Source: a virus. Taken from it: 24,223 nucleotides of DNA. Below the pieces are notes generated by a model. The model searched no databases and was not told the DNA's origin. It saw only the letters and a program-made list of their open reading frames with translations. The position numbers were made by a program, and so were the translations under genes. Location: positions 1-24,223 of IMG/VR virus record IMGVR_UViG_3300032006_000080; one strand, 5' to 3'. This document shows positions 3,079-23,323 of this stretch, piece after piece (within the stretch, counting starts at the first letter, position 1; every line of letters begins with the position of its first letter).

Positions 3079-5058
3079 CTACTCCCAATCTATATATTCC
3101 TCTATTATATCACACTTAGGCTTCCACTTAGACCAATCAATTTTAGTTGCCCATGAATCCTGGCACACTTCCATATCAACTTTGAGTGGAATATCTAAAC
3201 TATTAGCTTCTAATATGAGTTGTATTTGCTGTGGTAACTCACGTATTTCATCATCATGGATTTCACAAATGATTTCATCATGGACTTGCAGCAAAATATT
3301 ACTCTTTTTATCATTAAGATATTCATGTACATATACCATCCTCTCATTTAAGATATCGGCACTGGTGCCTTGTACCAAATAGTTTACACCTTTATAGCCC
3401 AGCGTATTATCTATTCTATAGATACGACCATACCGATTCTTTATCCAACCTCTTGATTCAACAGTATTAATTACCCTATTAATAAACGAGCGAGAACCAT
3501 GAATATTATTAAAGTACTGTTGCTTATACGCCTTTGCTTGGTCAGTTGTCGTACTCAATTGTTGAGCTAGTCGCTTATTACCTAACCCATAAAGAATACC
3601 AAATGTTATATTTTTTGCCATCTGCCTATAGAACTTAAATTCTGAATGTTCTTCATTAATACCAAACGCTATCTTGGCGGATTCACTATGGAAGTCTACA
3701 TCATCTCTATTTAGCAGTTCATCCATCTCTGCATTGTGCAGATAGCTCAGGAAAACACGTACTTCCATTTGTGAATAGTCGAAACTGACCAAAGTATAGT
3801 TAGCCCTAGGTATAAATAACCTCCGTACAGCCACTTGGTCTATGTCAGAAGTATCAAAGGATTCATCGCCTACGAATCCCCATGTATCTAGAACAGAATT
3901 ACTGAGAGTAACGTCAGACAATTCTCCCTTAGATTTAGAGGATACTATGGCATTAATTCTCCCTTTAACAATCTCCCTTTCCTCTTCAGATAAAGTTCTA
4001 TCACTAAGTTTAAAGTGAGTACGAGGTATGTTCTGAAGATTGGGTTCTCTAGAAGAGAGCCTACCTGTTAATGTTCCCCAGTTACAGAACGAGGTATGAA
4101 GCTCATCCGTTTCAATATAGGGTTCAATATAAGTAGACTGTAGCTTTTCTAGAGAACGATACTGCCTTACTAGTCCCGCTAATTCATTATCTATTTGAAC
4201 TAAAGCTACTTCACTCCATGACTCTTTATCCTTAGGAGTTTTAACAGGGGAACTAATACCCATGCTTGCAAAGATTTCTCCTAGTTGTTGAGTACTACTA
4301 ATATTAAAGTCATGCCCAACCATACTATAAATCTTCTGTGCTACTTCCTCTTTACGTTGAGAAAGTTTAGTAAACACTTCATTAGCATACTCTGTATCAA
4401 CTATAACTCCTCGTCGTTCCATATCAAATAGAACTCTAGTCAACTCACATTCAAGTTCAAAAACTTCTTCTTGCTGACTTTGCCTAATTTGTTGCAGTCG
4501 TTCCATATATAATTTAAATGTCCACCACACATCCTGCTTACAATATTCACCTAATCTATCTGGTGGAGCCATAGAAAAATCTTTATGCCATTTATTCTCT
4601 TGTAGATATTTTTTAGTTTCTATATCATAGCTAGCTGCTTGTTCTCCAAAACTTCTAGTAATAGCATCGGTTAGTCCTAAATCTCTAACAGCCGTATGTT
4701 CAGTTAAACGTACCATAACTAGAACATCTATTAACTTTTGACGATCTAATATTAGACCCTCATTAACTAAAAAATGTAAATCAAACTTAATATTGTAACC
4801 AATTAAGGTGGACGGTATTTCATTAAGCCATGAAATTATTTCTTGACGAGCTGCTGCGGATAGATTCTCTCCTTGTTGATGCCGAAACGGAAAATAATAA
4901 TTAAAAGGAAGTTCACCATCTACGGAACAAATACCTAATCCACAAATTTGGTTACTACCATAAGGATTTAAACCATTAGTTTCTACATCTATAACCCATT
5001 GATTAGACATACTTAGAGCCTGTTTAGTATCCTTATATGTGTCATTGGTGACAATCAT
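3079..5058 (-). CDS. Family A DNA polymerase with 3'-5' exonuclease
   Basis: The replicative polymerase, 659 residues from the ATG at 5058, which forms an ATGA overlap with the upstream stop; an ATG at 5073 would add five residues but has no ribosome binding site. The exonuclease domain has Exo I DVET (D24, E26), Exo II N89xxxD93 and Exo III YxxxD (Y172, D176), so proofreading looks intact. The polymerase domain has GRLSSREPNLQNIP, motif A FDYSQMEVR (D427), motif B RQMAKNITFGILYG (R478, K482, F486, Y490) and motif C QVHDE (H593, D594). The residue matching E. coli Pol I F762 is Phe. There is no 5'-3' exonuclease domain, which is normal for phage enzymes. About 60 extra residues sit between QNIPR and motif A (346-408). 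The last codons (CDII) contain a promoter-like box. Confidence 0.95.
   Translation of the reverse strand: MIVTNDTYKDTKQALSMSNQWVIDVETNGLNPYGSNQICGLGICSVDGELPFNYYFPFRHQQGENLSAAARQEIISWLNEIPSTLIGYNIKFDLHFLVNEGLILDRQKLIDVLVMVRLTEHTAVRDLGLTDAITRSFGEQAASYDIETKKYLQENKWHKDFSMAPPDRLGEYCKQDVWWTFKLYMERLQQIRQSQQEEVFELECELTRVLFDMERRGVIVDTEYANEVFTKLSQRKEEVAQKIYSMVGHDFNISSTQQLGEIFASMGISSPVKTPKDKESWSEVALVQIDNELAGLVRQYRSLEKLQSTYIEPYIETDELHTSFCNWGTLTGRLSSREPNLQNIPRTHFKLSDRTLSEEEREIVKGRINAIVSSKSKGELSDVTLSNSVLDTWGFVGDESFDTSDIDQVAVRRLFIPRANYTLVSFDYSQMEVRVFLSYLHNAEMDELLNRDDVDFHSESAKIAFGINEEHSEFKFYRQMAKNITFGILYGLGNKRLAQQLSTTTDQAKAYKQQYFNNIHGSRSFINRVINTVESRGWIKNRYGRIYRIDNTLGYKGVNYLVQGTSADILNERMVYVHEYLNDKKSNILLQVHDEIICEIHDDEIRELPQQIQLILEANSLDIPLKVDMEVCQDSWATKIDWSKWKPKCDIIEEYIDWE
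3104..3114 (-). promoter_or_regulatory. Extended -10 box upstream of MazG-like gene
   Basis: TGTGATATAAT on the coding strand is a perfect TRTGnTATAAT extended -10 element. It lies inside the last codons of the polymerase gene (CDII), 27 bases before the ATG at 3076. No TTGACA-like -35 is visible, as is common with extended -10 promoters. Confidence 0.5.
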
Positions 5059-5303
5059 TGTGCAGCATTCCATTCTGGTGGGTCAAAATGTCCTGCCTCT
5101 GCCATTCGTTTCATTAAACTATTATAAGCTTCTGCCACTGACGTACCCTGACCTGTTCTCCAAGTCTTATGTTTATCAGGAGCATTAATTTGCCATTGTT
5201 CTCCATCTAAGTCTCTTGGATCTCTACCTAATCTAACACTAAAATTAGCAAAGTTGTAATACAACGAGTGCATAACATCCATATCTGTTTTACTAAAAAT
5301 CAT
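5055..5303 (-). CDS. Small protein of unknown function
   Basis: An 82-residue protein without a recognised domain. It has an N-terminal helix-like stretch (FSKTDMDVMHSLYYNFANFSVRLG), a polar loop rich in D, R and W (RDLDGEQWQINAPDKHKTWRTG) and a C-terminal helix (SVAEAYNSLMKRMAEAG). The central part resembles a small beta-hairpin carrying conserved-looking tryptophans, but I cannot place it. The ATG has GGGGGAG 4 bases upstream, inside the end of the previous gene, which it overlaps by 11 bases. Its stop overlaps the polymerase start (ATGA), so it is probably translated with the polymerase. Confidence 0.6.
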   Translation of the reverse strand: MIFSKTDMDVMHSLYYNFANFSVRLGRDPRDLDGEQWQINAPDKHKTWRTGQGTSVAEAYNSLMKRMAEAGHFDPPEWNAAQ

Positions 5304-5517
5304 GTTCTCCCCCTACAACGAAATTCCCCATAGGATGGGGTGGCTTCTCTTCTTCTCTAATTTTACCATACAATCTAAGAATACGCTTAGTTTCCTGTAT
5401 AGTCTGTAGATGTGATGGCCCCGTCTTCTGAATATACCAATTTAATAAGAGTTCTATAACTTCATCTAAAGTGGGGGGGCCGAAGCCCCCACCACTTATT
5501 GTCTTAGAAGAGTTCAT
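5293..5517 (-). CDS. Small protein of unknown function with a hairpin in its 5' end
   Basis: A 74-residue frame that I do not recognise. After a glycine/proline-rich start (SGGGFGPPT) it has a helix TLDEVIELLLNWYIQKTG and a second helix SHLQTIQETKRILRLYGKIREEEK. The ATG at 5517 overlaps the end of the SSB gene by 14 bases and has no clear ribosome binding site. Codons 10-15 are formed by a C(UUCG)G hairpin (5475-5490), so the first residues may be dictated by RNA structure. No downstream ATG, GTG or TTG in the first third offers a better start. The frame is open and in line with its neighbours, but its start is doubtful. Confidence 0.5.
   Translation of the reverse strand: MNSSKTISGGGFGPPTLDEVIELLLNWYIQKTGPSHLQTIQETKRILRLYGKIREEEKPPHPMGNFVVGGEHDF
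5475..5490 (-). other. GC-rich hairpin with UUCG tetraloop
   Basis: On the coding strand GGGGGC-TTCG-GCCCCC forms a perfect 6-bp GC stem closed by C(UUCG)G, one of the most stable RNA tetraloops. It begins 14 bases after the SSB stop. No T-run follows it, so it is not a standard intrinsic terminator. T4 mRNAs carry similar CUUCGG hairpins between genes, where they affect mRNA ends and stability; a like role is inferred. Confidence 0.7.
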
Positions 5518-6205
5518 CTAACTTTATTGCTTCAGAGGATGCTGTATGCCCATTGGATGTAGCAGTTGAAGCCGTTACAGACCCATACCTATCCCTAAAA
5601 TATTCTTTAACCGCAGGGAGGTCACCCTGCTCTTCAAACTTATCATTAGGAATTTCCATATCTCTAGCGGTTGCTGAAATAGCATAGGAAGTATCCAGCA
5701 TACCTGAACCAGAACGTTTAATACGCATTACTCCTTTATCCAACTGACCCCAATCATTATAAACATCAACCAATTGATTCCAGATATAATCACTACGCCC
5801 AAAAGTTAAAGCTACGAGCCGATAGTCATTAACGACTTCCTTATACATCTTTTTACCACCTGGGCCTGCAACCTCTTCCCAGGAATCCACACGCTTCTCA
5901 GGATGTATTACTTCGTGTACGAAAGCCCAGAAGCCAAACTTATGGCTAGGCCGTGTATCTGAAGGAACATCAGAAGTGTCCGTATCTGGGTCAGATAGAA
6001 GGTTCACCCACCGATTACCAGACCTATACGTATAAATATAAAACTCATCTAGCTTAGAATCATCTTCATGTCCTGTAGCTAATGAGGTTATAAACGCTTG
6101 GTCACCATCTTTAAACCAAATTTCTCTACCTACCGCTTGGTTACCATTACTAATACCAGTTCGTTGTTCTTCCCTGCGTTCTTGAATTCTATTTATTCCA
6201 CCCAT
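5504..6205 (-). CDS. Single-stranded DNA-binding protein (phage type)
   Basis: A 233-residue protein that looks like the gp32-like ssDNA-binding proteins found beside phage primase and polymerase genes. The core (about 28-180) is beta-rich and aromatic: IWFKDGDQAFITSL, FYIYTYRSGNRWVNLL, FGFWAFVHEVIHP, YRLVALTFGRSDYIWNQLVDVY and GVMRIKRSGSGMLDTSYAIS. It is followed by a flexible Ser/Thr linker (208-225) and a short acidic tail ending LDELF. An acidic tail with a terminal Phe is the usual protein-docking signal of ssDNA-binding proteins (T7 gp2.5, E. coli SSB). No zinc-binding cysteines are present, unlike T4 gp32. It would coat the unwound strand and recruit polymerase and recombinase. The ATG has AAGGAG 9 bases upstream, and a TGTGATATAAT box precedes it by 36 bases. 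Confidence 0.7.
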   Translation of the reverse strand: MGGINRIQERREEQRTGISNGNQAVGREIWFKDGDQAFITSLATGHEDDSKLDEFYIYTYRSGNRWVNLLSDPDTDTSDVPSDTRPSHKFGFWAFVHEVIHPEKRVDSWEEVAGPGGKKMYKEVVNDYRLVALTFGRSDYIWNQLVDVYNDWGQLDKGVMRIKRSGSGMLDTSYAISATARDMEIPNDKFEEQGDLPAVKEYFRDRYGSVTASTATSNGHTASSEAIKLDELF

Positions 6206-6219
6206 AATTTATTCTCTCC

Positions 6220-7083
6220 TTACCAATAATTTCGTTCATTTATTATATCACAAAGTTGGTTTTTATTTCTTATATCTTGTACATCTTTAACACCCTCAGG
6301 CAAGGTTATATATGAAACAATAAAGCTGTTCGATAGCTCTTTAAAAATTTTATTCATAGCTCGTTGTCCTGTAGTATCATTATCTAAACATATAACAAAT
6401 TCTTGTGTAGGTATATTATATAACATTTCCCGTTGTTTTTTCGACATGCTTGCCCCCAAGAGGGCCACGGAACCAAACCCATGTTGGTCTAGCCACATAG
6501 TATCCAGGCTTCCCTCCGTTATACAAACAAAGGAGTGTTTAAATAAGTGGCAAGCTCCAAACAAGAGCTTGGACTTCTTTAATCCTTTGGAATACATATA
6601 TTTAGGAGTAGCATTTAAACGTCTACTCACCCAGCCAACTAGTCGCTTATTTAGATCAGCAACAGGAATGATTAAATCATTATAAGTATTAATAGCGCAT
6701 CCCCATTTCATTAGAGTATCACTATTAAATCCTCTTTCAATAATCCATTTGGGAACCGTATCACATAGAAATGGGAAGTCTACTAAAGGAAGTTCTGTAT
6801 CGTCCTCCATAGTAAACCCATCAAAAAGGTTTATATTGAAGTCAGCTTCCTGCTCATGTAATAGACTATCTATTTGAATACGTGAATAATTTAAATATCT
6901 TTGCAAGAAACTTTTAAGGTTACCAGAACCACATCCTGCAAAACAAATCCATACCCCCTTCTCTACATTAATAGAACACGAATCTATTTTATCCTCATGG
7001 AAAGGGCATCTGATAGAGAATTCATCTTTATACGTAGATGGAGTTATGCCTGCATCTAACAATACATTTGTCCAATCGATCAT
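6220..7083 (-). CDS. DnaG-type DNA primase (zinc finger plus TOPRIM)
   Basis: A 287-residue primase that makes RNA primers at the fork. The N-terminal zinc finger is CPFH (C26, H29) with C47 and C51, a CHC2-like ligand set. The TOPRIM core has ITEGSLDTM (E190, D194), CLDNDTTGQRA (D233, D235) and DVQD near 267-270. At 287 residues it is far shorter than bacterial DnaG (about 580) and lacks its own helicase-binding domain; in T7 these functions are fused, while here the helicase is the gene immediately upstream. The two genes overlap by TAATG, with AGGAGAG before the start. The C-terminus (CDIINERNYW) overlaps a promoter-like box for the SSB gene. Confidence 0.88.
   Translation of the reverse strand: MIDWTNVLLDAGITPSTYKDEFSIRCPFHEDKIDSCSINVEKGVWICFAGCGSGNLKSFLQRYLNYSRIQIDSLLHEQEADFNINLFDGFTMEDDTELPLVDFPFLCDTVPKWIIERGFNSDTLMKWGCAINTYNDLIIPVADLNKRLVGWVSRRLNATPKYMYSKGLKKSKLLFGACHLFKHSFVCITEGSLDTMWLDQHGFGSVALLGASMSKKQREMLYNIPTQEFVICLDNDTTGQRAMNKIFKELSNSFIVSYITLPEGVKDVQDIRNKNQLCDIINERNYW
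6242..6252 (-). promoter_or_regulatory. Extended -10 box upstream of SSB gene
   Basis: TGTGATATAAT, identical to the copy at 3104-3114, lies in the last codons of the primase gene (CDII again), 36 bases before the SSB ATG. No clear -35 is visible. Strong separate transcription would suit SSB, which is needed in large amounts. Confidence 0.5.
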
Positions 7084-8321: not shown

Positions 8322-8324
8322 TCT

Positions 8325-8603
8325 CTACTCCTTCTTTGAATCATAGATAATTCGATTAGAATCGTTGTGTACATAGTATATCACATCCGCTTGTTCTTGA
8401 AATGTATCAACCATTTCCTTTGCTTTAGCAAAAGTCGAAACGGTATCCTCAATCCATACTTGTTTATTTAACTGATGAACACCTATAATTCTAAACTCTC
8501 CCTCTGGTGCTGTTCTACCTTGTATGTCTTGCTTATCTAGATCCTTCTTTACTTTTATTAGTCCTAGTTGCCTTTTTCTTTGGTGCCGTTCCCTCTTTCT
8601 CAT
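8325..8603 (-). CDS. Small basic-N-terminus protein, unknown function
   Basis: A 92-residue protein of unknown function. The first 25 residues are strongly basic (RKRERHQRKRQ, KVKKD); the rest looks like a small alpha/beta fold with strands FRIIGV, QVWIEDTVS and DVIYYVHND and a helix AKAKEMVDTFQEQ between them. A nucleic-acid-binding role is possible from charge alone. The ATG has GGAG 7 bases upstream and lies inside the preceding gene (71-base overlap), so start and length rest on that site. Only one base-triplet gap separates its stop from the helicase start. A TGTGATATACT box lies within its 3' end. Confidence 0.55.
   Translation of the reverse strand: MRKRERHQRKRQLGLIKVKKDLDKQDIQGRTAPEGEFRIIGVHQLNKQVWIEDTVSTFAKAKEMVDTFQEQADVIYYVHNDSNRIIYDSKKE
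8375..8385 (-). promoter_or_regulatory. Near-match extended -10 box upstream of helicase gene
   Basis: TGTGATATACT matches the recurrent box except for TATACT. It lies in the 3' end of the preceding gene, in a different reading phase (codons for DVIYY), 53 bases before the helicase ATG. Weaker than the perfect copies. Confidence 0.35.
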
Positions 8604-9030
8604 CAGTACACTCCATCAATTCTTTTTCCAATTCTTCTATGCGCCGTTTATCTCTAGCTTTAGGAAACCATTTAGCTTTAATCATTCTTAACTGCTTCCA
8701 TTTATCTATATATTCTTGTTGATTACTAGAATATATTTTCCATTGTAATTCAGGATTATCATCAGTTGATAGATAATATTTAATTCCTGCAACAAAATAT
8801 GGGATATGTACTGTATTAGAATTCCGCTTAATACAAGATACTATCCCACATAAAATGGCAAAGACATCATGTGACTCTAGTAAACCCTTTAATAACTTCA
8901 TTTCATATCCTATGAATCTAGATGACACATATTCTTTGCCATGTTTCTTATAATACTCTTCTGAAAAAATTCTATGTAAATCGTGGCTATTATAATCTTC
9001 TATTGCTTTCTCCCGTTTTTCCATAATCAT
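8533..9030 (-). CDS. Helical protein of unknown function upstream of helicase
   Basis: A 165-residue, mostly helical protein that I do not recognise. It has a hydrophobic central part (LLKGLLESHDVFAILCGIVSCI, VHIPYFVAGIKYYL) and a very charged, lysine-rich C-terminal tail (from RIEELEKELMECTDEKEG onward). I start it at the ATG at 9030, which has AAGGAG 9 bases upstream; a TTG at 9048 would place that site inside the gene. It overlaps the end of the sigma gene by 41 bases. Its place between sigma and helicase would suit a helicase loader or a replication initiation factor, but no ATPase or HTH motif supports this. Confidence 0.6.
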   Translation of the reverse strand: MIMEKREKAIEDYNSHDLHRIFSEEYYKKHGKEYVSSRFIGYEMKLLKGLLESHDVFAILCGIVSCIKRNSNTVHIPYFVAGIKYYLSTDDNPELQWKIYSSNQQEYIDKWKQLRMIKAKWFPKARDKRRIEELEKELMECTDEKEGTAPKKKATRTNKSKEGSR

Positions 9031-9562
9031 AAAATTCTTCTCCTTCAAATAACGCTTGTACCTTTTCTCTAAGAGTTAATCGAATAGAATAAGCAGATTC
9101 ATGTAAATCTTCTGTAATCTCTTCCATTGTTAACCCTTCTAATCTTAACACAATAAACTGTTCTTCTTTAGTTGTTAAATTACTATTACGTAATAATTCT
9201 AACACTTCTAGTTCTTCAAAAGAATCATCGGCTATACCTAGGGCCTGCTGGACTTTATTAGACGGAGCTTCATCATAAGTAGTATCTAATAAGTCATCTA
9301 TACTCTGTACTTCTAGATGCTTACGCTGTGCTTTAACTATTAATGTACGTAAAGTATTCATCATAGTCGTATGAAGATAAGTATGGAAAGACGTACCCAA
9401 TGATGAATCAAAACCTTTAGCAGCTTTCAGAATAGCTATCCGTAGTTCTTGAGCAATATCATCTCTATCCATATCTAATACGAAAACAGAGGAAGCTAAT
9501 TTCTGCACTTTAGGTTCCCATTGAGTAATTAAATCATCATTGATTTCTATTTCCGTTTCCAT
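8990..9562 (-). CDS. Sigma-70 family RNA polymerase sigma factor
   Basis: A 190-residue small sigma factor. Region 2 spans about 12-80: VQKLASSVFVLDMDRDDIAQELRIAILKAAKGFD, then TSFHTYLHTTMMNTLRTL, the pattern that binds the core polymerase clamp and the -10 element. A loose acidic linker follows (about 85-120), then region 4 at about 128-172 (LTTKEEQFIVLRLEGLTMEEITEDLHESAYSIRLTLREKVQ), a helix-turn-helix for the -35 element. It would redirect host RNA polymerase to phage promoters. The ATG at 9562 has GGAG 7 bases upstream; a GTG at 9574 has none. It is encoded between structural and replication genes, beside an HTH/zinc-finger protein. Confidence 0.85.
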   Translation of the reverse strand: METEIEINDDLITQWEPKVQKLASSVFVLDMDRDDIAQELRIAILKAAKGFDSSLGTSFHTYLHTTMMNTLRTLIVKAQRKHLEVQSIDDLLDTTYDEAPSNKVQQALGIADDSFEELEVLELLRNSNLTTKEEQFIVLRLEGLTMEEITEDLHESAYSIRLTLREKVQALFEGEEFYDYGKTGESNRRL

Positions 9563-9783
9563 AGTTTTCTCCACAAACTTTTAGGGGTATAACCTTTAGC
9601 AATTAAATACGCATAATTAGCCATTACTCCTGAAAAGAACAAAACAATTAGATATAATGTCCACAAAGGTAATGGTGCAAATTTAAAGAAAGTTACCATA
9701 ATAGCATCCTCTAACATATGCATCGCTGTAATACCCACGAATAATTTCCAATATAACTTATCTACCTTATGATGTACGTGCAT
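9547..9783 (-). CDS. Small membrane protein with two transmembrane helices
   Basis: A 78-residue protein with two predicted membrane helices (about 13-33 and 39-62) joined by a short loop FAPLPLW, and a basic tail (KSLWRKLWKRK) that should stay in the cytoplasm. The first helix contains a charged LED (25-27). The start has GAGGAG close upstream. Size, two helices and the basic tail would fit a holin or a superinfection-exclusion protein, but there is no endolysin next to it that I can name, so neither can be claimed. It overlaps the sigma gene start by 16 bases. Confidence 0.6.
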   Translation of the reverse strand: MHVHHKVDKLYWKLFVGITAMHMLEDAIMVTFFKFAPLPLWTLYLIVLFFSGVMANYAYLIAKGYTPKSLWRKLWKRK

Positions 9784-10178
9784 TAAATACTCCTCTGTCC
9801 TGTTATCCCATCTTTTTGTCCACGGTTATAACAAGAACGACTACAAAAAATATGTAAATACCCTCGCCTATAACTATCTTTAATTATACGCTTTTTACGA
9901 CGAAACTTTAAATGACAAAATTCACAGTTCACCCAAATAAATTTAATATCTTCTTTACATTTACCTGGGCAAACCTTTTGTTTATTGGGGGTAGGACTAT
10001 TACATACAGGACAATAAACTAACTTCTTTCGTTGATATAATCCTTTAGTAGGTAGTCCTGCCTCCTTTAATATACGAAAAATTCGCTGCTTTGTTACACC
10101 AAGTTTCTGAGCTATGGCTGGTAAAGTCAGATAAGGCTGACTCTCCTTCAAAGCTATTGCTTCTCTTCGTGTAGACAT
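9783..10178 (-). CDS. HTH plus double zinc-finger DNA-binding protein
   Basis: A 131-residue putative transcription regulator. Residues 16-42 (LTLPAIAQKLGVTKQRIFRILKEAG) form a helix-turn-helix. Two four-cysteine zinc sites follow: C56/C59 with C70/C74, and C85/C88 with C112/C116, the second separated by a basic segment (KFRRKKRIIK). The stop overlaps the next start (TAATG-like junction at 9783). No ribosome binding site precedes the ATG; instead a perfect TGTGTTATAAT box overlaps it, so translation may be coupled to the upstream gene 14 bases away. It is encoded two genes before the sigma factor, so a role in the transcription switch is a reasonable inference; HNH endonuclease was considered, but no H-N-H pattern is visible. 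Confidence 0.7.
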   Translation of the reverse strand: MSTRREAIALKESQPYLTLPAIAQKLGVTKQRIFRILKEAGLPTKGLYQRKKLVYCPVCNSPTPNKQKVCPGKCKEDIKFIWVNCEFCHLKFRRKKRIIKDSYRRGYLHIFCSRSCYNRGQKDGITGQRSI

Positions 10179-10187
10179 TATAACACA
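10177..10187 (-). promoter_or_regulatory. Extended -10 box over the HTH gene start
   Basis: TGTGTTATAAT is a perfect copy. Its last bases are the first two of the ATG of the HTH/zinc-finger gene, so a transcript from it would start inside that gene and carry the membrane protein and sigma genes rather than the HTH reading frame. Confidence 0.4.
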
Positions 10188-10192
10188 TTAGC

Positions 10193-10645
10193 CTAGATAA
10201 TAATCTCTACATTGCTACGATTAAATATATACATACCGCTCCCCTTCTTGGGCCAACTATCGGACTGGGGTTCAAATATCTTAGAAGTACCATTTGAAAA
10301 GATAATTATATTGTAGGCATGACCACCATCATAATCTATAACCAACCCTACAGTATTGATATGAAATTTCCTATCTACTCTAGCTTTGAACGAGAAGGCA
10401 AAATTATCACAGTCATATTTCTCAGCAACATATTTTTTATTATCTGTCCAATCCCAATCAATAATTTTTTGAAACTCTTTCTCAGAAACGGCTACATATT
10501 TATTATCTAACCAAGTCATCTTGGCTCCACCAATAGCCTTACTAACATCACGTTTAAGCATATCCTTATGTCCTGTAAGTTCTGGCGGAGTTAAAATAGC
10601 TAGGTCATCTTTTAATTTTATAAGGGTAGATACTAGTTCTCCCAT
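10193..10645 (-). CDS. Papain-like protein resembling the MOA agglutinin C-terminal domain
   Basis: A 150-residue protein whose central part reads KYVAEKYDCDNFAFSF, then GLVIDYDGGHAYNIIIF, then KIFEPQSD. The order Cys (C79), His (H109), Glu (E125) and the surrounding DCD, GGHAYN and EPQ matches the papain-like cysteine protease domain at the C-terminus of the Marasmius oreades agglutinin (Cys215, His257, Glu274 as I recall), a family also found in phages. Substrate and role are unknown; peptidoglycan or a host protein are both possible. There is no signal peptide, membrane helix or separate binding domain. The ATG has GAGAGGTGG upstream, and the gene overlaps the previous one by 13 bases. The match is by eye, from a remembered pattern. 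Confidence 0.6.
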   Translation of the reverse strand: MGELVSTLIKLKDDLAILTPPELTGHKDMLKRDVSKAIGGAKMTWLDNKYVAVSEKEFQKIIDWDWTDNKKYVAEKYDCDNFAFSFKARVDRKFHINTVGLVIDYDGGHAYNIIIFSNGTSKIFEPQSDSWPKKGSGMYIFNRSNVEIII

Positions 10646-10933: not shown

Positions 10934-10945
10934 ATCTCCTCCTGA

Positions 10946-13900
10946 TTAATTACCTTCTAACGTATCTATCCTAGTGGTTAAAGCATCATTCTGACTTTTA
11001 AGTTCTTGAACAGCTTTAACTAACATGGGAAGTAACCATGAAGTATCCAAAACTTCAAAGTCCTCTATAACAATTTGATTATCAGCATCTTCAACCCAAA
11101 CCCCTTCATCACTTTTCTTCCAACCATAAGATTCTTTTACTGGCTGAACAGCTGTTGCAACTACCTCTTTCACTTCTTGAGCAATAAAACCTACTTCAGT
11201 ATCTTTACGGTTAGGTCGATACGAATCCTTAAAATTAAATCGCCTAGGTTTTAATTGGAGTAGTGTATCTAAAGCGGGTTCCATATCAACAATATTTTCT
11301 TTTACACGTTCATCTGAACTAGTTGCCCAAGTAGCTTGAGTAGAAAGAGCTACACCATTTACATGTAGTAAATGAGATGGGGTACTAGTACCTATACCAA
11401 GTCTAGCAGCTCCTGATGTACCATCTAATATAATCGGTTGACCATTTGCTACCAAACCAAGTTTGTCATTGCTAAGTCTGAATATACCCGTATTTGGATC
11501 TAAACTAAAAGTGTAGGAGGGTGATCCTGCTGAACCATCGGTAGCTGTTAAAGGATAACTAACCGTAGCTGAACCACTACCAACAGAATATTCAGTGGTT
11601 CCTATTTTCATATATAAGGTAGTACCACGAATATACAAAGCTCCCCAGTTTGTTGCAGTTGTAGCACTGGGAGCAGAAGCTTTAATACTTATATAGTGAG
11701 TGTTGGCATAAATAGTTCCCCACGGGCCAGTCTGTGGGCCTCCAAGTCCTATCTCACCTGGGATATGAGGAGCTAGGTAGTTAACTTCAGGGTCAGTTAT
11801 ATATGTACCATTATTCGTTCTTGAAGCAAATAATATACGGTTATGACCAGCACTAGACTGACCCCACATACTATAGTAATAGTCAGCTGTTGAACCAGTC
11901 CCATGTTGAAGATTAATGGGATGTTGTTGGTCTTTCATCCATAAGCCCATATTATCTAAAAGACAAGCTCCCTCACCAAATTCAGCTTTTCCAGTAGTAG
12001 CTCTAATTTCAAATTGCTTAGTATTGTCCTTAACACCCACTATACCAGCGTTATTAATAATAATACCTGACCCAGTGGGGTTACCACTTTCATCCCTGTT
12101 TACTCCATCACTGGTTCGTATTTTACCATCAGTACCAGATAGAGTAATTGTCTTCGCATCTAATGAGCCTGCTTGAATATGATCAGCTATAACAGCATTA
12201 GCTGCTATAGCTACAGCATTAAGAGTAGGGGTTTTAGAATTAAATGGTAAGATGGTGGGAGCTGTTTGGTTAGTATCAGCACCCACAACAATTAAAGCTA
12301 ATAATAAATTGTTATCCCCCATTGCTGTCGAATGTACAGTAGTAAATTGTGGAGTAGTAGAAACACTAGTATCAATATACATATAATTAGTAGTATTATC
12401 AGCTAATCCAGAAAGTTTAGTTCCTGCTGCTATAGAAATACTTGTATTATCTCCATATGTTAAAGTAGATGCACCATTAGATGTTCCATTATCCCACATA
12501 ATTTGATTATAGTTTTCATTAGTATGTTTTCTGATAGATATATTAGAAGCCCACGGTCTAGCTCCTGGCTTTAATAATGCTGATGTTAACGAATTCTGAT
12601 TAAAGGAAAACCCAGGATTCATAATATTACTAGCTACACCCCATGTATTATCAAATACATATAAAAATTGTATATTAGGAATACCTTTAGGAAATTGTAT
12701 AGTTCTACTGTAAAAGCTAGTCCCTGGTTTACCAATAGTTCTAGACCCAGCATCTTCTAATGTTCCTATGTTTAAGTATGCTAATTCTATATAACTATCT
12801 GCCTTAACATAACCAAAATCTGAATAATCTATTATATCAATATTTAAGGAATATCTTCCTAAGTCATCAACAACACCATCACGGTCTAAATATAATATAT
12901 ATTGAGTATATGGCCCCATACAAGTATTCGGAGGATTAGGAGCACCAGGGTCATTACTATCATTAAATGTAGTAAGTCCTGCTCTAACTAGGGCTTCATC
13001 AGTATCTCCCGCTTTAAAAACATATGTACGTCTACGTCCACTATTAACAACTATAGACCCACCCGACCATGAGAATGTGTTATAATCCTTTTTAAGGGGG
13101 TCACTTACTTCAGTGGGAGTTTCTGCATTCTCATTATCATGCCACCAAAGAACACCTTTAGCCGTATACGCTCCTGAACCTAAATCTTTTTGTTCTATAA
13201 CAATTGGGTCAACTATTTCTGAAATAATCTCAGGATCTTCCTCAGTGGAAGGTCTAGATTTAAAAACAACTTTATCGTTCATACCAATAACTTCTAGTTC
13301 AGAATAAACTTGCCCATTAGCCCATGAGTAATATATACTCTCCACAAGAAAGTCGCCTGCTATGCCCAATAAAAGATTTTCAATTCTAATTGAATCTCCA
13401 GCCCGTATCGGTGCGTAAATACTATAGGTATCTCCCGATTGCCAAGAACCCACAGAAGGACTAGCCTCAGCTAATGTATCTTCTTTCCATAAAGATGCAG
13501 TAACATTATTACTTTGGGTAAGAGTGATGAAGCCTACAAATTTATCTGAACTACCTGAAGCCATTGAAGTTCTTTGAACAGCACAACCACGTTTCATTCC
13601 GTAAGAAGCTGGTGTTACACCACCAGAGAAACTTTCAGATGGGTATAGAGTAGAGCCTGAACTTGACAGCCCCGCTGTACCTCTCATAGTAATGTGTGGG
13701 TAATCTTTAATCCTAAAGGTTCCGGTACGTAATCGTTTAGTTTCTTTATTATTAGCTTTTAAAAATTCATTTTCAATTCTATTACGTAAGTCTTGATATG
13801 TGGCCTTAGGACTGTGTACTTTTTTAGTTTGTTTATAACCCCGATCCGCAGCAGGATAAGATACGAATTTAATTTTAGCTCCACGAGGATTTCCTGTACC

Positions 13901-15775
13901 AGCACCACTATGATCCATTTCATAATAATGGCTTCGTTCATATAACACATCGCCTGCGGTAAGAGTTCTGATTACATCTTCTTGAGGACTACTAACTATA
14001 ACATAGTGATTACCTTCTTCATCCTTACCTTGTATCTGAACATTACCTATCCATGTCTTTGTCCCATAATTAATATAAGGATATTCAGTAACACTCGTAA
14101 AAACCTGTTGGACATTGGCACCTGTCTCATCCGCATCGTTATCACCCGCAGCGTCTATATCCCGACCTAGTGGCCCTATCTTAGTATGAAGCGAACTTAC
14201 TTGATGGAATGTCCTAGATTTATATTCACCAGCAGCTACTTTCTTTAGGAAACCATTAGATACTGCACTGTTAGGCCAAGTTTGGCTTATATCACCATCA
14301 GCATAATTACAAGAAAAATCTTCAAGGTCATCATCATTACTATCAAAAGGCTCTACATATATAAGAGCAAATTCTAATGTTTCTTCTTCTTCTGTTGTGT
14401 CTGTATCCGTACCCAACACATCATACATATCCCATGTATATCCATTTATGGCACCCATCCAGTTATCTGGAGTAGTCATGTCCCAATATTTAGTACTTGG
14501 AAGCATTGCCGACATTAATTTTCTTCCAGTCGTTCCTGTTGCACCAGGGGAACTAGTAGTAATATAATTGCCAAACTTAAAATGCATCCCACTTTGACCT
14601 TTTGGATTAGCACCCGCAGGTTTCCCTCGATCACGCTCTTTAGTATACGGATAGGTTAAAACTAAATGGCTTACATAAGCAGCACCATGTGCTTCAAACT
14701 CATACCCATCTTGAAGCATATTACGAGCTTTATCTGAAACTGTTAAACTTGCACCACTTGTTTCCTCTATAGGATTAACAGCGTATTTAACTGCTAATCC
14801 TCTAGTATTAGGAGTATTCGTATTTTTATATCCCCGTCTACTATATACAAAATCTTGTTGAGGTAATAACGTAGCCCCGTTTGCCTGAAGTCGTGGGTCA
14901 AGTCTAGTAGCATCTAAATGGAAAGTAAAGCCCATTTTACCATCCCCTTCTGCCCAAACCTCAGCGGATGCCTGATCTTGAATTTCCGTAAGCGTATTCT
15001 TCTTAATTTTATTAACGTCTAACTTTGAGTTGGGGTCTGTTATCCTAATACTCTCTTCTGTCCAATTCTTAATCTTGGGGGATGTTGTCCATGATTCTAT
15101 TTTATCTGTATCAGTAAATCCAATTTCAATATTACCTGATGTGTTAACGTATGAAGTTCTCTCTATCAACTGTTTAATTATATGATAATGATTACGAACT
15201 TCGTTGTGCTCTAATAGTGTATCATTATTTGACCCACTCTCCTCCCTAGTAGTAGTTAAACGGTACTCTAATTCCCGTTCTTCTTCAGCTGGTGACTCTT
15301 CAAAAGGCACATTTTTACCTAATTCATATAAAGCATCCCGACAAGTAAGAGTTAGAGTACTTCCTCTAGATAAATCATAAGTTTCTTCCCTTTTAATTAT
15401 ACGTCCGACAAACAATGTCATAAACGTATCTGTTTCATAGACAATAATACGGGTAAACTCATTTAACATTCCATGAAATTGAGGAATCTGGGGATTAACT
15501 AGTGGGTCTTCTCCAAAAGTATAGGAATTGTTAGGTTCTGTAAAAGTCCCTAAGGGTTTACTTTGTCTGTTATTCAGCGTAAGACGTATTTGTAAGGGAG
15601 CACCTTGATCATCCTCTAGTTCCATTGCTAGAACAGGAGATCCACCAGTATGGCTATACGGTTTATTCGTAGGAGTTACAGCAGCATTAGCATCATACTC
15701 TGAATTTTCCTCTTTATTTTTTAGTTCATTCCATTTTGACCCAGCGTAATATAAAACAGTAAGTCTACTAGCCAT
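10946..15775 (-). CDS. Tail hub/host-specificity protein with C-terminal S74 chaperone
   Basis: A 1609-residue tail protein, the largest gene here. Residues about 60-160 (beta-rich, RIIVYETDTFMTLFVGRIIK then STLTLTCRDALYEL) look like a baseplate-hub domain; beta-rich segments continue to about 830 (SIRIENLLLGIAGDFLVESI). From about 1190 (ADHIQAGSLDAKTITLSG) to 1290 it has the repeats typical of phage host-specificity proteins, and near 1460 a fibre GIGTSTPSHLLHVNG segment. The C-terminus is a peptidase S74 intramolecular chaperone: SSDERVKENI with catalytic Ser about 1487, VGFIAQEV, then a coiled coil (SQNDALTTRIDTLEG). S74 domains fold the trimer and cut themselves off at that serine. It should sit at the tail tip and contact the host. 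The ATG follows the upstream stop by two bases. Confidence 0.8.
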   Translation of the reverse strand: MASRLTVLYYAGSKWNELKNKEENSEYDANAAVTPTNKPYSHTGGSPVLAMELEDDQGAPLQIRLTLNNRQSKPLGTFTEPNNSYTFGEDPLVNPQIPQFHGMLNEFTRIIVYETDTFMTLFVGRIIKREETYDLSRGSTLTLTCRDALYELGKNVPFEESPAEEERELEYRLTTTREESGSNNDTLLEHNEVRNHYHIIKQLIERTSYVNTSGNIEIGFTDTDKIESWTTSPKIKNWTEESIRITDPNSKLDVNKIKKNTLTEIQDQASAEVWAEGDGKMGFTFHLDATRLDPRLQANGATLLPQQDFVYSRRGYKNTNTPNTRGLAVKYAVNPIEETSGASLTVSDKARNMLQDGYEFEAHGAAYVSHLVLTYPYTKERDRGKPAGANPKGQSGMHFKFGNYITTSSPGATGTTGRKLMSAMLPSTKYWDMTTPDNWMGAINGYTWDMYDVLGTDTDTTEEEETLEFALIYVEPFDSNDDDLEDFSCNYADGDISQTWPNSAVSNGFLKKVAAGEYKSRTFHQVSSLHTKIGPLGRDIDAAGDNDADETGANVQQVFTSVTEYPYINYGTKTWIGNVQIQGKDEEGNHYVIVSSPQEDVIRTLTAGDVLYERSHYYEMDHSGAGTGNPRGAKIKFVSYPAADRGYKQTKKVHSPKATYQDLRNRIENEFLKANNKETKRLRTGTFRIKDYPHITMRGTAGLSSSGSTLYPSESFSGGVTPASYGMKRGCAVQRTSMASGSSDKFVGFITLTQSNNVTASLWKEDTLAEASPSVGSWQSGDTYSIYAPIRAGDSIRIENLLLGIAGDFLVESIYYSWANGQVYSELEVIGMNDKVVFKSRPSTEEDPEIISEIVDPIVIEQKDLGSGAYTAKGVLWWHDNENAETPTEVSDPLKKDYNTFSWSGGSIVVNSGRRRTYVFKAGDTDEALVRAGLTTFNDSNDPGAPNPPNTCMGPYTQYILYLDRDGVVDDLGRYSLNIDIIDYSDFGYVKADSYIELAYLNIGTLEDAGSRTIGKPGTSFYSRTIQFPKGIPNIQFLYVFDNTWGVASNIMNPGFSFNQNSLTSALLKPGARPWASNISIRKHTNENYNQIMWDNGTSNGASTLTYGDNTSISIAAGTKLSGLADNTTNYMYIDTSVSTTPQFTTVHSTAMGDNNLLLALIVVGADTNQTAPTILPFNSKTPTLNAVAIAANAVIADHIQAGSLDAKTITLSGTDGKIRTSDGVNRDESGNPTGSGIIINNAGIVGVKDNTKQFEIRATTGKAEFGEGACLLDNMGLWMKDQQHPINLQHGTGSTADYYYSMWGQSSAGHNRILFASRTNNGTYITDPEVNYLAPHIPGEIGLGGPQTGPWGTIYANTHYISIKASAPSATTATNWGALYIRGTTLYMKIGTTEYSVGSGSATVSYPLTATDGSAGSPSYTFSLDPNTGIFRLSNDKLGLVANGQPIILDGTSGAARLGIGTSTPSHLLHVNGVALSTQATWATSSDERVKENIVDMEPALDTLLQLKPRRFNFKDSYRPNRKDTEVGFIAQEVKEVVATAVQPVKESYGWKKSDEGVWVEDADNQIVIEDFEVLDTSWLLPMLVKAVQELKSQNDALTTRIDTLEGN

Positions 15776-15777
15776 GT

Positions 15778-16338: not shown

Positions 16339-16347
16339 TTATTCCTC

Positions 16348-17664: not shown

Positions 17665-17681
17665 CCCCCGTATTAATTTTG

Positions 17682-18071: not shown

Positions 18072-18080
18072 TCTTTCCTC

Positions 18081-20561
18081 CTACGGATAATAAGGCTCCC
18101 TATCTCTAATCATTATATCAATATTTCTCATAACAAAATCACACTGTACTTGGAATGGAGCTTCAGTAACAATAGTATGTGGAGCACTTCTCAGGAATGC
18201 TCCCTGTTCTCCAACTCCGCCTCCCGCATCATTAGTATATCCAGTAGTTGCAGGAGATTCAAGAGAGGTTACAGCATTAGGACGAGCTAACACTTCTCCT
18301 GGCCTACGCCCTGGAATCCTAACAATTATACAATCTTCTACGCCTGGTGCGCCTTCTATATCACCTCTAGAAAACTTCAACTCTATGTGGAAACCTTTAT
18401 GTCCACCAGATTGGTCAGTATATCTACCTTCCAGTAAAAGTTCTTTAAAGAGAGAAGTAGCATTATCTAAATCATTAGCTGTTGTTGATTTAGTATCAGG
18501 CAATGCCACTGTACATTGCATAGAGTATTCTCTACGTTGTTCCCTTAATTCAGCTGGCCCACGATGGTCACCGTGACGAGGGCCAATATAATAACGAGGG
18601 TCTAGATTATTATTTACAGATAATGCAAAACTTCTAATACGGGCAAATTCAACAGCTGTAGAATTAGAAGCACCCAACAACTTAATTGAACCACTGGAAA
18701 AATAATAAGGCTTGGTAGTTGGGAATACTATATCAGATGCTGATATATCATTCATCATAGCAAAGCCAGGAATATCCGCTTTAGCAGCTCCCTCACTAGT
18801 TCCTCCCCCACCAGCATTTTGTGCTATCGTGGTATCAGGATAACGAGTACTTCCTGAATGCTTTCCCTGATTATGAATCATGTCAGTAAAAGCTAGACTA
18901 TCCCAGTTGACTGAAATCAATCCTCCTTCTTCACCAAGAATGGTCATAGCTCCTACTTTACCGCCTAACCATCGACGGTCAAAGTCGTTCTCAGCATTGG
19001 CTTCACTATCTTTCATATGTAGATGCATACTAATAGTATCAAGGTCTACCATTTCCGTTAGATAATGTTCTATGTAAGTAGATGGACAAGTTGTTCCATT
19101 TTTAGACTCTAATCTAAAACCATATATCCGACAATTAAATCCGATATTAGTATTAGTTTGTTGATCTCCTCCAGCAGCATGATCATAACTTAGAGGATAA
19201 TCTAATTCTACCCAAGCAGATGGATTAACCATGTTAGTAGTTTCATTATTGTTAATCCACGCAGCTAAATCGGCACCAGTCCGCTGTTTATTCAATGTCT
19301 TAATTTTTCTAATCTCTAATTTATTTCCAAGATTGTACCCAGTATTACTTAATATATTACTATACAATCGTTGAGAACGGTCATAATTAACAGTACCCTC
19401 GTTTCCTAGCAAACCCTCCGTATAATCTATTAATAGATAATCTCCCTCTTCTAGAATTGTAGTTAAATTATTAGAGGAGAGCTTAATCCATGTGTCTCCT
19501 TTTTTGGCATCAGCACCCGTAGCAAGGCCCACACCATTCCGCCTTGGAAAAGCGTTTTCACCTCCAGTCGTAGTATCATCAGCTTCAGTATGACCCAAAT
19601 TTATAATAGATCCCGTACCATCTCCACTTCCAGACCCACTCCCTAGATAATCTGCTGTTAAAGCAATCATACCATAAGGTATTGGAGTATCTTTACCGAT
19701 AGCAAATCGAAGGGGGAAACCGTTTGTTAATATAAGACCATTCAAGGCTCCCATATAAGATTGCTGTCCTGCATACATTCCATTAAAGTTTCTATTAGCA
19801 GTAGTTCCTAGGAAATAGCGAGGTTCTAAGGTAGGTGTAAAATCAGGAGTATCTACAGTCTCGTATACACCTGGGACAATATTTATATATTTTCTATGTA
19901 CTGTAGCTCCTCTATTGTCTGCTCCTTGAAGAAGAGCAATATTACCATAATTAGAAAATGCAGGAGTTGCATAACTATGAGCAAATTGATTATGATTACC
20001 AGTGTACGTAAGATCACCACTGGCTCCATTTGCCACACCCTCATCAGTTGGGTAATGATTAAAGCCTAAGGGCCGATCAAAATAAAGAATTCCTTCATCC
20101 CTGGAAAAAGCTGGACTACTACCGCTCACTACAGAGGTATCGGTAACTTCAACATGTTCAATACGCCGTACCTCAGGATTAACTATAGACCGTTTCGCAG
20201 TTCTCTCAGGAACATAATATTGGTCATTTGAACCTGTCCTAGCGGGATCCCAATCAAATGCAACTAGGTCACCCCGCTTAAATTTTGACACAGCATTCAC
20301 ATAACATTTCCGATCTCCTGCTAATAATGGAGTACAACTGGATTTAATATTAGCATCAGGTGTGGGGTCATTACCAGTATCATTTCCCCCTGGCCCTCTT
20401 AATACATTTATGGTTGGTGTTCTACTAAAGAAGGCAGAGTAAACCACTGTAGGGCTACTAGTTGTATATGCGGAAGCAGGGACAATAAGCTCTGAGTCTG
20501 CCCCAGGAGCTACTTCACTAGCAATTGTGAGTTGTGATTGATCAGGTCGTAAGACAGCCAT
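18081..20561 (-). CDS. Major tail tube-like protein, unusually large
   Basis: An 826-residue structural protein. Its place (after the tail-terminator candidate, before the chaperones) is that of the major tail tube protein. The C-terminal third fits: VNWDSLAF, SSGSIKLLG, VEFARIRSFALSVNNNLDPRYYIGP, AELREQRREYSMQCTVALPD, LFKELLLEG and FHIELKFSRGD read like the beta-barrel of phage tube proteins. Tube proteins are usually 150-400 residues, so about 450 residues at the N-terminus are extra. These are rich in G, N, T and D, with no catalytic motif, and could be surface decoration. A tail sheath is possible by size but lacks recognisable sheath features. GGAGG lies 6 bases before the ATG, and a promoter-like pair lies just upstream. 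Confidence 0.6.
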   Translation of the reverse strand: MAVLRPDQSQLTIASEVAPGADSELIVPASAYTTSSPTVVYSAFFSRTPTINVLRGPGGNDTGNDPTPDANIKSSCTPLLAGDRKCYVNAVSKFKRGDLVAFDWDPARTGSNDQYYVPERTAKRSIVNPEVRRIEHVEVTDTSVVSGSSPAFSRDEGILYFDRPLGFNHYPTDEGVANGASGDLTYTGNHNQFAHSYATPAFSNYGNIALLQGADNRGATVHRKYINIVPGVYETVDTPDFTPTLEPRYFLGTTANRNFNGMYAGQQSYMGALNGLILTNGFPLRFAIGKDTPIPYGMIALTADYLGSGSGSGDGTGSIINLGHTEADDTTTGGENAFPRRNGVGLATGADAKKGDTWIKLSSNNLTTILEEGDYLLIDYTEGLLGNEGTVNYDRSQRLYSNILSNTGYNLGNKLEIRKIKTLNKQRTGADLAAWINNNETTNMVNPSAWVELDYPLSYDHAAGGDQQTNTNIGFNCRIYGFRLESKNGTTCPSTYIEHYLTEMVDLDTISMHLHMKDSEANAENDFDRRWLGGKVGAMTILGEEGGLISVNWDSLAFTDMIHNQGKHSGSTRYPDTTIAQNAGGGGTSEGAAKADIPGFAMMNDISASDIVFPTTKPYYFSSGSIKLLGASNSTAVEFARIRSFALSVNNNLDPRYYIGPRHGDHRGPAELREQRREYSMQCTVALPDTKSTTANDLDNATSLFKELLLEGRYTDQSGGHKGFHIELKFSRGDIEGAPGVEDCIIVRIPGRRPGEVLARPNAVTSLESPATTGYTNDAGGGVGEQGAFLRSAPHTIVTEAPFQVQCDFVMRNIDIMIRDREPYYP
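18112..18120 (-). promoter_or_regulatory. Extended -10 box upstream of tail chaperone gene
   Basis: TGATATAAT (TGnTATAAT) lies in the end of the tube-like gene, 40 bases before the chaperone ATG at 18071. It lacks the outer TG of the stronger boxes. Confidence 0.3.
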
Positions 20562-20593
20562 ATTTTTCCTCCATAGTCAATACCTACTAATAT

Positions 20594-20621
20594 ATTATAC
20601 TCTAATTTACGTTATTTCCAA
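20594..20621 (-). promoter_or_regulatory. Promoter-like pair before the tail tube-like gene
   Basis: TTGGAA, 16 bases, then TATAAT, ending 32 bases before the ATG at 20561. The -35-like half is in the final codons of the tail-terminator candidate; the -10 is in the gap between genes. The flank GTATAATATAT is shared with the box at 22505-22510. Confidence 0.5.
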
Positions 20622-22213: not shown

Positions 22214-22222
22214 TGTTTCTCC

Positions 22223-22471
22223 TTATGAAGCTATTACTTCAGGTGGGTATTGTTCACTCCTCTCTAAACTATCTACATCTACTGTTCCATTTGTGCTTTC
22301 TGGTTCATTCTCTTGTTGCTTCCCCCTCAAGTACATAGCTATGCCATTGAGGTTATGAATCTGTTGCATGAGGGTTTCCCTCTGCTGATTCAATTCATTT
22401 GCTTGCGCCACTAATTGTTCCAACTGTGTATTTATCTGAGTCAAATCCTGTTCCACATCTATATCTGCCAT
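22223..22471 (-). CDS. Small coiled-coil protein, unknown function
   Basis: An 82-residue acidic protein. Residues 5-55 form a heptad-like helix (DLTQINTQLEQLVAQANELNQ and LMQQIHNLNGIAMYLRG); the rest is a disordered acidic tail. Nothing identifies its role; small coiled-coil proteins in structural modules may be assembly factors. The ATG has AAGGAGG 7 bases upstream, and a TATAAT box with a 19-base palindrome lies in the leader. Confidence 0.6.
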   Translation of the reverse strand: MADIDVEQDLTQINTQLEQLVAQANELNQQRETLMQQIHNLNGIAMYLRGKQQENEPESTNGTVDVDSLERSEQYPPEVIAS

Positions 22472-22504
22472 TGTTCGCCCTCCTTAACTTTTGTTTCCTT
22501 ATAT

Positions 22505-22510
22505 ATTATA
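22505..22510 (-). promoter_or_regulatory. -10 box next to a palindrome
   Basis: TATAAT in the context GTATAATATAT, 33 bases before the coiled-coil gene start at 22471. No TTGACA-like -35 is present; a 19-base palindrome occupies that place. Confidence 0.4.
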
Positions 22511-22517
22511 CTATTTT

Positions 22518-22536
22518 ACTATAGATATTCTATAGT
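22518..22536. promoter_or_regulatory. 19-base palindrome, possible operator
   Basis: ACTATAGATATTCTATAGT is a perfect inverted repeat (8-base arms, 3-base centre). It begins one base after the stop of the 248-aa gene and ends 7 bases before a TATAAT box. No T-run follows it on the coding strand, so terminator is unlikely. An operator or phage-specific promoter dyad is inferred. Confidence 0.45.
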
Positions 22537-22537
22537 A

Positions 22538-23284
22538 TTATGTACTTCTAACCGCTTTACGCCATAACTGTTTATAAACTCCTGTGAAGCCTTGGGAAAT
22601 CCTAGCACTAGTAGACCTCACTAAATTGGTGTCCTCTTCTGTCATAGGTTTTAGCTCATGTTGAAAATTATCCCTCTTAAAAGGAATTAGTTGTATTAGT
22701 GGGGTTCCCTGTGAAATCACACCTTCAAAGTCTTCTGGGCCTGTCCACACAAATGGAAATGATATGTTGTTAAAATAAGAATCAGTTGCTACAATTGCAG
22801 GAATCATTTGAAAGTTAGGATTGCCACCATTAAGTGGAGTAACAAATAATGTCGAGTAGCCTTTCGGGGTTTGGATAAGCCAAGGGTTAGTAAATTTAAA
22901 AGAATTCCCTCCCGTTGTCTTCCCTTCTTCCATAAGAGGCATACCCTCCGTCTGTGTTGGGTGATGATCCTCTATATGCCCACTTGAATTAGCAGACGAT
23001 TGCCACCCAAACTCTAGGGCTAGTTGCCCTGTCTCTTCATCAAAACCAGTATTCACATATATATCACTCCACAAAGGAACTATGTACCCCTGAGTCATTG
23101 CATCGAAAAAAGGCATACATGCTTTAATATGCTGAGGGGCATATGGTGGGTCACCTTCCTTTAGAATACTTGCTTGCTTATACCAATCTGGCAAAGCTTT
23201 CGCAGCGGGTACAATGGGTGCAATAAAAGCATTCTCTGCTGGATATTTAAAAGTGATTAGTTTCTTATCTTTCCTTAGTTTCAT
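22538..23284 (-). CDS. Conserved-looking phage protein of unknown function
   Basis: A 248-residue soluble protein. It has the opening IAPIVPAAKALPDWYKQ, then CMPFFDAMTQGYIVPLWSDIYV, FKFTNPWLIQTPKGYSTLFVTPLN, SFPFVWTGPEDFEGVISQGTPLIQLIPFKRD and a helical basic end. This pattern recalls a family I have seen in marine phage genomes without an assigned function; I cannot name it. There is no signal peptide, membrane helix, or nucleotide-binding motif; a cupin- or double-barrel-like beta fold is possible. The ATG has GGGAGG 8 bases upstream, and a TGTGGTATAAT box precedes it by 28 bases. It lies between tail-fibre and head-tail genes, so it may be structural, but an accessory enzyme is equally open. 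Confidence 0.6.
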   Translation of the reverse strand: MKLRKDKKLITFKYPAENAFIAPIVPAAKALPDWYKQASILKEGDPPYAPQHIKACMPFFDAMTQGYIVPLWSDIYVNTGFDEETGQLALEFGWQSSANSSGHIEDHHPTQTEGMPLMEEGKTTGGNSFKFTNPWLIQTPKGYSTLFVTPLNGGNPNFQMIPAIVATDSYFNNISFPFVWTGPEDFEGVISQGTPLIQLIPFKRDNFQHELKPMTEEDTNLVRSTSARISQGFTGVYKQLWRKAVRST

Positions 23285-23312
23285 ATCTTATACCTCCCTA
23301 TTAACTGTAAAC

Positions 23313-23323
23313 ATTATACCACA
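23313..23323 (-). promoter_or_regulatory. Extended -10 box upstream of 248-aa gene
   Basis: TGTGGTATAAT, a perfect TRTGnTATAAT, lies in the 40-base gap after the fibre gene, 28 bases before the ATG at 23284 and 6-8 bases upstream of where transcription would start. This is the one perfect copy wholly outside coding sequence, which supports a regulatory reading. Confidence 0.55.

Follow-up and report, generated by a model that had tools for sequence, protein, structure and literature searches.

Conserved TGTGnTATAAT boxes as probable -35-independent promoters in a lineage of uncultured phages

The window analyzed here is a virus record of 24,223 nt (IMG/VR record IMGVR_UViG_3300032006_000080) with a gene array on the minus (coding) strand, including genes for a DNA polymerase (polA), a primase, a DnaB-like helicase, a sigma factor and a tail tube. 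Along this array recurs the motif TGTGnTATAAT which, judging by its strict conservation and by the ordinary TTGACA-type promoters found at the same places in related phages, very probably marks promoters of the bacterial type that can dispense with a -35 element. Perfect copies lie on the minus strand at 3104, 6242, 10177 and 23313, exactly where an earlier reading of the DNA (the original prediction) had placed them. The first two share the sequence TGTGATATAAT; one (3104–3114) is within the 3′ end of polA, with the likely ATG of the next gene 27 nt on, and the other (6242–6252) is within the 3′ end of the primase gene, 36 nt ahead of gene 5504–6205. The third, TGTGTTATAAT at 10177–10187, is intergenic and shares the ATG of a helix-turn-helix (HTH) gene at 9783–10178, forming TATAATG, and the fourth, TGTGGTATAAT at 23313–23323, lies 28 nt before gene 22538–23284 and is homologous to the single box TGTGGTATAATATATAAG found in the genomes G001 and G002.

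Two near matches had also been proposed. The minus-strand box at 8375–8385 (TGTGATATACT, one mismatch), which again sits within the 3′ end of the gene before it (8325–8603) and precedes the helicase gene by 53 nt, has held up, whereas the one at 18112–18122 on the same strand (ATTGATATAAT) has two mismatches, falls within the 3′ end of the tail-tube gene and is a weak candidate; G001 has the same DNA there and G019 does not, and the encoded residues may be the cause of the similarity. Minus-strand sites as good as 8375, each with one mismatch, are also found in the middle of genes, at 6415, 7635, 12488 and 21350. The claim that every box is on the coding strand does not hold, since a fifth perfect match (TGTGTTATAAT, 13076–13086) lies on the plus strand, antisense within the tail-fibre gene 10946–15775, probably by chance. 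All eight boxes originally named are indeed within 55 bases of a gene start. However, the two plain TATAAT boxes grouped with the others, at 20594 and 22505, both carry AGTATAATA and belong to a separate family-wide motif considered below, and TATAAT by itself is not enriched in the window (47 seen, 50 expected).

The estimate that well under one match per strand would arise by chance proved sound. Shuffled versions of the window contain 0.14 perfect copies of TGTGnTATAAT on both strands together, compared with the five observed, and none of 100 shuffles reached five. Relatives give the same picture. The DNA polymerase of the window has seven close relatives in IMG/VR, at 82–86% identity, within a wide family at approximately 56–62%, and four further close contigs were taken from scans with the sigma factor and the helicase; among cultured phages there is no close relative, the best matches being below 30% identity. 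In G002 (57.4 kb), the largest of the close relatives, there are seven perfect boxes against 0.14 expected, all on the coding strand with none opposite and all within 98 nt of a start, two of them overlapping the ATG. When every pattern of 4 + 6 bases with a gap of 0–2 was ranked in G002, no pattern being chosen beforehand, TGTGnTATAAT came first among the split 10-mers, and other permutations of TATAAT following TGTGn each occurred at most once. No perfect TGTGnTATAAT is found on the noncoding strand of any close relative, although these contigs are overlapping orthologues and counts across them are not independent.

The individual boxes are conserved at orthologous sites. The box at the 3′ end of polA (3104) is identical in all seven aligned close sequences, in which the codons just upstream vary and include a 9-base indel, and the box at the primase end (6242) is identical in every close relative that reaches it. 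At the helicase box (8375) all close relatives have TGTG[AG]TATACT, with variation only at the free position, and the same is true of the 10177 box, which reads TGTG[TC]TATAATG in 7/7 close sequences. In the two coding cases, in which the box encodes the residues CDII, all of the codons are fixed; elsewhere in those genes, the share of conserved residues with an invariant codon is 48% for Cys, 56% for Asp and 37% for Ile. Taken on its own, at about 0.1 per site, this fixation offers moderate evidence.

More distant relatives were surveyed at the same junctions for TTGACA/TATAAT pairs within two mismatches. Of 78 distinct sequences, 36% have such a -35/-10 promoter ahead of the helicase gene, compared with 0% on the opposite strand; ahead of the gene after polA the figure is 39% of 49 (10% opposite), and ahead of primase, polA, recA and two neighboring genes it is at most 1%. 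At the HTH gene and the post-primase junction, the distant relatives gave no -35/-10 signal. When 16 contigs were aligned at the polA junction, anchored on the conserved polA end, a -10 hexamer was found at one exact offset in 14, all with the TG, and was nearly absent at other offsets. Ten of these contigs have TTGACA or a one-mismatch form of it at a spacing of 17 bp together with a weaker hexamer (TACACT, TACAAT or TATACT), and the four from the window lineage have the perfect TGTGATATAAT and no -35. The helicase junction is similar, with 14 sequences that have a -35 and five, from the window lineage, that have the TGTG and lack a -35; here the -10 is displaced by 3–5 bases between lineages. 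The exchange of one promoter type for the other is thus seen at two junctions and not at all of them.

The same contrast extends across the genomes. Promoters of the TTGAC type within 80 nt of a start number 0 in 125 kb of the window lineage and 23 in 275 kb of the others, and for G002 alone the rate in the far lineages predicts about five, with none seen; conversely, TRTGnTATAAT occurs at 1.76 per 10 kb in the window lineage and 0.22 in the others, an eightfold difference. Nor is a -35 element hidden at the TGTG boxes, where the best -35 match has at least two mismatches and mostly three to five. In the mix-and-match description of sigma-70 promoters, TGn can make up for an absent -35, and a perfect TGnTATAAT needs none (PMC2613000), so the exchange fits what this model allows. 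The best reading of these patterns appears to be a lineage-wide change of promoter architecture.

The boxes also have the form of extended -10 promoters. A TG lies one base before a hexamer at or near TATAAT at all of the TGTGnTATAAT sites, no -35 accompanies the boxes (an absence only), and they lie a short distance upstream of genes in the same orientation. The original prediction had further taken them to split the array into several units. This was not borne out, because terminator-like sites in the window are at the level of shuffled sequence and several boxes lie inside coding sequence; internal promoters within a long same-strand array would be the better description. An Rfam scan of the window matched no known RNA element, and a standard -35/-10 scan of it picked up none of the TGTG boxes.

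The original prediction left open whether host polymerase or a phage sigma factor reads the boxes; their identity as promoters is now well supported computationally, with the host as the better-supported reader and the phage sigma less so. The phage sigma gene (8990–9574, minus strand) encodes regions 2 and 4 without region 3 (Sigma70_r2, 1.3e-10), the composition that defines the extracytoplasmic function (ECF, group IV) sigma factors. Throughout its family Sigma70_r2 is matched in 31/31 members, a weak region 4 in 17/31 and region 3 in none, and the best solved relatives are sigma-E and AlgU/sigma-H. The predicted fold also gives ECF-like matches, though from a weak model (pTM 0.40) that is silent on specificity. 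In sigma-70 it is region 3 that contacts TGn (PMC2613000). Two genes upstream of the sigma gene is the minus-strand HTH/zinc-ribbon-like gene (9783–10178) with the box on its ATG, for which HTH_23 and treble-clef matches are below the Pfam cut-offs. Adjoining this cluster is a small gene (10193–10645) that matches models of a lectin/agglutinin C-terminal domain and is confined to the close lineage.

In G002, the stretch from 39.5 to 57 kb contains small, mostly uncharacterized genes and a Mom-like DNA modification gene (coding positions 49751–50269) and is presumed to be the early region; it has nine TRTGn boxes without a -35 on the coding strand, compared with 1.2 expected and two on the opposite strand. 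This enrichment in genes presumed to be early, and the ECF-like make-up of the phage sigma (regions 2 and 4 alone), make a host sigma-70-type polymerase the likelier reader. Between the small genes of the same region there are four strong G/C stem-loops (GGGGGG...TTGTGAACCCCCC; coding positions 43403, 44147, 51097 and 55643), some followed by a -10-like box, which are found in G002 only. At coding positions 39518 and 51444, the boxes TGTGTTATACT and TATGGTATAAT have a strong G/C hairpin within a few bases, so near that transcription from either box would start within this hairpin.

A second class of box precedes the structural operons. On the minus strand, AGTATAATA occurs at 22504–22512 (box 22505), ahead of gene 22223–22471, where [AG]GTATAATA is present in 7/7 genomes, and at 20593–20601 (box 20594), ahead of the tail-tube gene 18081–20561, where it is found in seven genomes across the family; a search of viral contigs for more tail-tube relatives returned none. 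In the distant genomes G019, G024 and G026, the leading patterns include GTATAATATA or TAGTATAATA, and six distant genomes together have 41 copies of [AG]GTATAATA on the coding strand against five on the opposite one, a bias that permuted controls share less strongly. It lies ahead of the neck-region gene in 7/7 genomes and of the gene preceding the portal gene in 6/12, is also found in the leader of the scaffold/capsid operon, and is scarce among replication genes (4/84 at the sigma gene, 3/85 at gene 5504–6205). The weak TTGGAA/TTAGAA at the tail-tube sites, absent in G026, may be coding sequence of the preceding gene. Since the DNA-reading segments of the phage sigma are nearly invariant over the family, its natural target would be a family-wide motif, which TGTGnTATAAT is not; perhaps, then, the phage sigma reads [AG]GTATAATA. 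No mention of the exact string TGTGNTATAAT was found in the literature.

Several further features were noticed. Gene 22538–23284 (phrog_7084), of unknown function, sits between the TGTG box at 23313 and the AGTATAATA box at 22505, an arrangement reminiscent of an inserted cassette that brings a promoter of its own; it is missing from G001 and G002, where one box replaces it, and relatives of it, at approximately 30–38% identity, are found in large virus contigs that are unrelated. Between its stop codon and the AGTATAATA box there is a perfect 9-bp inverted repeat on the minus strand (22517–22537, TACTATAGA-ATA-TCTATAGTA), a possible hairpin or operator. Four genomes from across the family have a conserved leader, GTCGG-GGTGGCTTAGACCAAC, that separates the promoter from the scaffold/capsid operon (coding positions ~34370–34400 in G002, 58949 in G019, 39512 in G024 and 45084 in G026); it has no Rfam match and could form a small hairpin. 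Between the terminase and portal genes of G002 is a gene that appears, by eye from its translation, to be ribonucleotide reductase-like (coding positions 26888–28735; L104:8677–10524).

We consider it likely that the TGTG boxes are extended -10 promoters of a -35-independent kind and that the polymerase reading them is the housekeeping, sigma-70-type enzyme of the host, with the structural [AG]GTATAATA as a candidate target of the phage sigma. On this account the host polymerase would recognize TGn and a consensus -10, with no -35 element, at fixed junctions of the replication block (HTH/sigma, helicase, the post-primase gene, the post-polA gene and the Holliday-junction resolvase) and also in the block presumed to be early. 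Where sister lineages have TTGACA-17-TACAAT/TACACT, as they do at some junctions, the window lineage lacks the -35, and the perfect -10 with TGTGn would compensate. The structural operons would use the second, family-wide box, which may be read by the ECF-like sigma of the phage. The sequences themselves show the motif, how it is conserved, its bias in strand and position and the exchange at orthologous sites; the start of transcription at the boxes, the assignment of each class to a sigma factor and the timing are what we infer.

Several points weigh against this account. Two conserved sites, at 10177 and at G002 coding position 23830 (the resolvase gene), fuse with the start codon as TATAATG, unlike a promoter for that gene; given the overlap at 10177, a transcript from there could not carry that start codon, and such promoters may serve only genes further down, or the overlap may be regulatory. 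One of the five perfect matches in the window (13076) is antisense, and the counts over the close contigs are drawn from orthologous DNA and so are non-independent. The early label of the 39.5–57 kb stretch rests on gene content, and the promoter function is read from sequence; a polymerase scan of 84,980 genomes for a host gave remote matches only, at no more than 32% identity, many in Patescibacteria. Finally, reading of extended -10 promoters that lack a -35 is known for ECF sigmas of other phages too (PMC4331800, PMC5333181).

This last point leads to the main competing explanation, in which the TGTG boxes are promoters for the ECF-like sigma that the phage itself encodes, in the manner of phiEco32 and 7-11. 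The sigma gene is in the same block with one box ahead of its cluster, no box has a -35, and the -35-less 7-11 motif TGTGATGTTATA looks similar (PMC4331800; PMC5333181). Yet TGTGnTATAAT is confined to the window lineage while the DNA-reading segments of the sigma hardly vary, sister lineages share this sigma but carry TTGACA promoters at the corresponding junctions, the boxes are enriched in a presumed early block that would have to be read before any phage sigma exists, and it is a different motif, [AG]GTATAATA, that is common to the whole family. We therefore regard this explanation as unlikely. It is more doubtful still that the boxes are operators of a phage regulator, such as the HTH protein (9783–10178), instead of or besides being promoters. 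The start of the HTH gene within a box, its weak HTH match and the TATAATG overlap at two genes, odd for a promoter, would suit an operator, but the consensus matches the extended -10 of sigma-70 exactly and has its free position as theory expects, the sites align with the -10 of the relatives' -35/-10 promoters, and many far relatives have an HTH homologue but no box. Chance combined with coding constraint, in which AT-rich DNA and conserved CDII residues yield the boxes, is the least probable explanation and we have rejected it. Although CDII is encoded by two of the four boxes, and an antisense match and mid-gene near matches exist, the motif was the top-ranked pattern in an independent genome without preselection, noncoding sites are conserved with N alone varying, the codons at the CDII sites are all fixed compared with 37–56% elsewhere, and the boxes are positionally homologous to -35/-10 promoters; enrichment, codon fixation, the polA alignment and the permuted controls all bear on that rejection.

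A broader scenario would have the lineage move genome-wide to -35-independent promoters, either as the host holoenzyme cannot use a -35 or as a phage protein blocks sigma region 4, with the structural operons handed to the phage ECF sigma reading [AG]GTATAATA. In T4, AsiA blocks sigma region 4, an effect from which TGn or other strong contacts give a promoter partial protection. None of the 30 presumed early G002 open reading frames scanned against PHROGs was AsiA-like or another anti-sigma, a scan that does not exclude the existence of one. The scenario as a whole seems rather improbable, and a host change or a phage anti-sigma as the cause of the -35 loss are ideas only.

These results amount to a promoter map for a large family of uncultured phages and to a guess, open to testing, at what a new phage ECF sigma recognizes. 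They also present a natural experiment in promoter evolution, with a -35/-10 promoter at given junctions in some lineages and a -35-less extended -10 promoter in another, a contrast predicted by the mix-and-match model. For annotation, they mean that a standard -35/-10 scan overlooks such promoters.

Compared with known systems, the TGTG boxes are most like the extended -10 promoters of sigma-70/sigma-A, including the tgTGnT "-15 element", in which TGn directly precedes TATAAT, often with a TG ahead, and the -35 is unneeded (PMC2613000). They differ in that an entire phage lineage has no recognizable -35 at any site while orthologous junctions of sister lineages use -35/-10 promoters, a comparison made here from sequence alone. 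Staphylococcus phage K likewise has host-type promoters, with the extended -10 frequent in early and middle genes and a different, -35-less late arrangement, but its early and middle promoters retain the -35 (PMC11598898). The phages phiEco32 and 7-11 share a phage ECF sigma, extended -10 promoters without a -35 and host promoters for early genes (PMC4331800, PMC5333181), although their motifs, TAATGTATA and TGTGATGTTATA, differ from both TGTGnTATAAT and [AG]GTATAATA. The late promoters of T4, read through gp55 (PMC2988020), may be compared with [AG]GTATAATA and not with the TGTG boxes, having a single TATA-type box without a -35 ahead of structural genes, in a phage with a sigma-family protein; here, [AG]GTATAATA lies ahead of the neck, tail-tube, portal and capsid operons, and the weak TTGGAA/TTAGAA seen at the tail-tube sites may be coding sequence. 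In place of the 8-bp TATA consensus of T4 the motif is [AG]GTATAATA, and the sigma resembles the ECF factor sigma-E, keeps a region-4-like HTH in contrast to gp55, and showed no gp55 match. Against this background the TGTG boxes appear to be a genuine and conserved class of promoters whose kind is known, but for which the comparative record of a change in architecture is uncommon.

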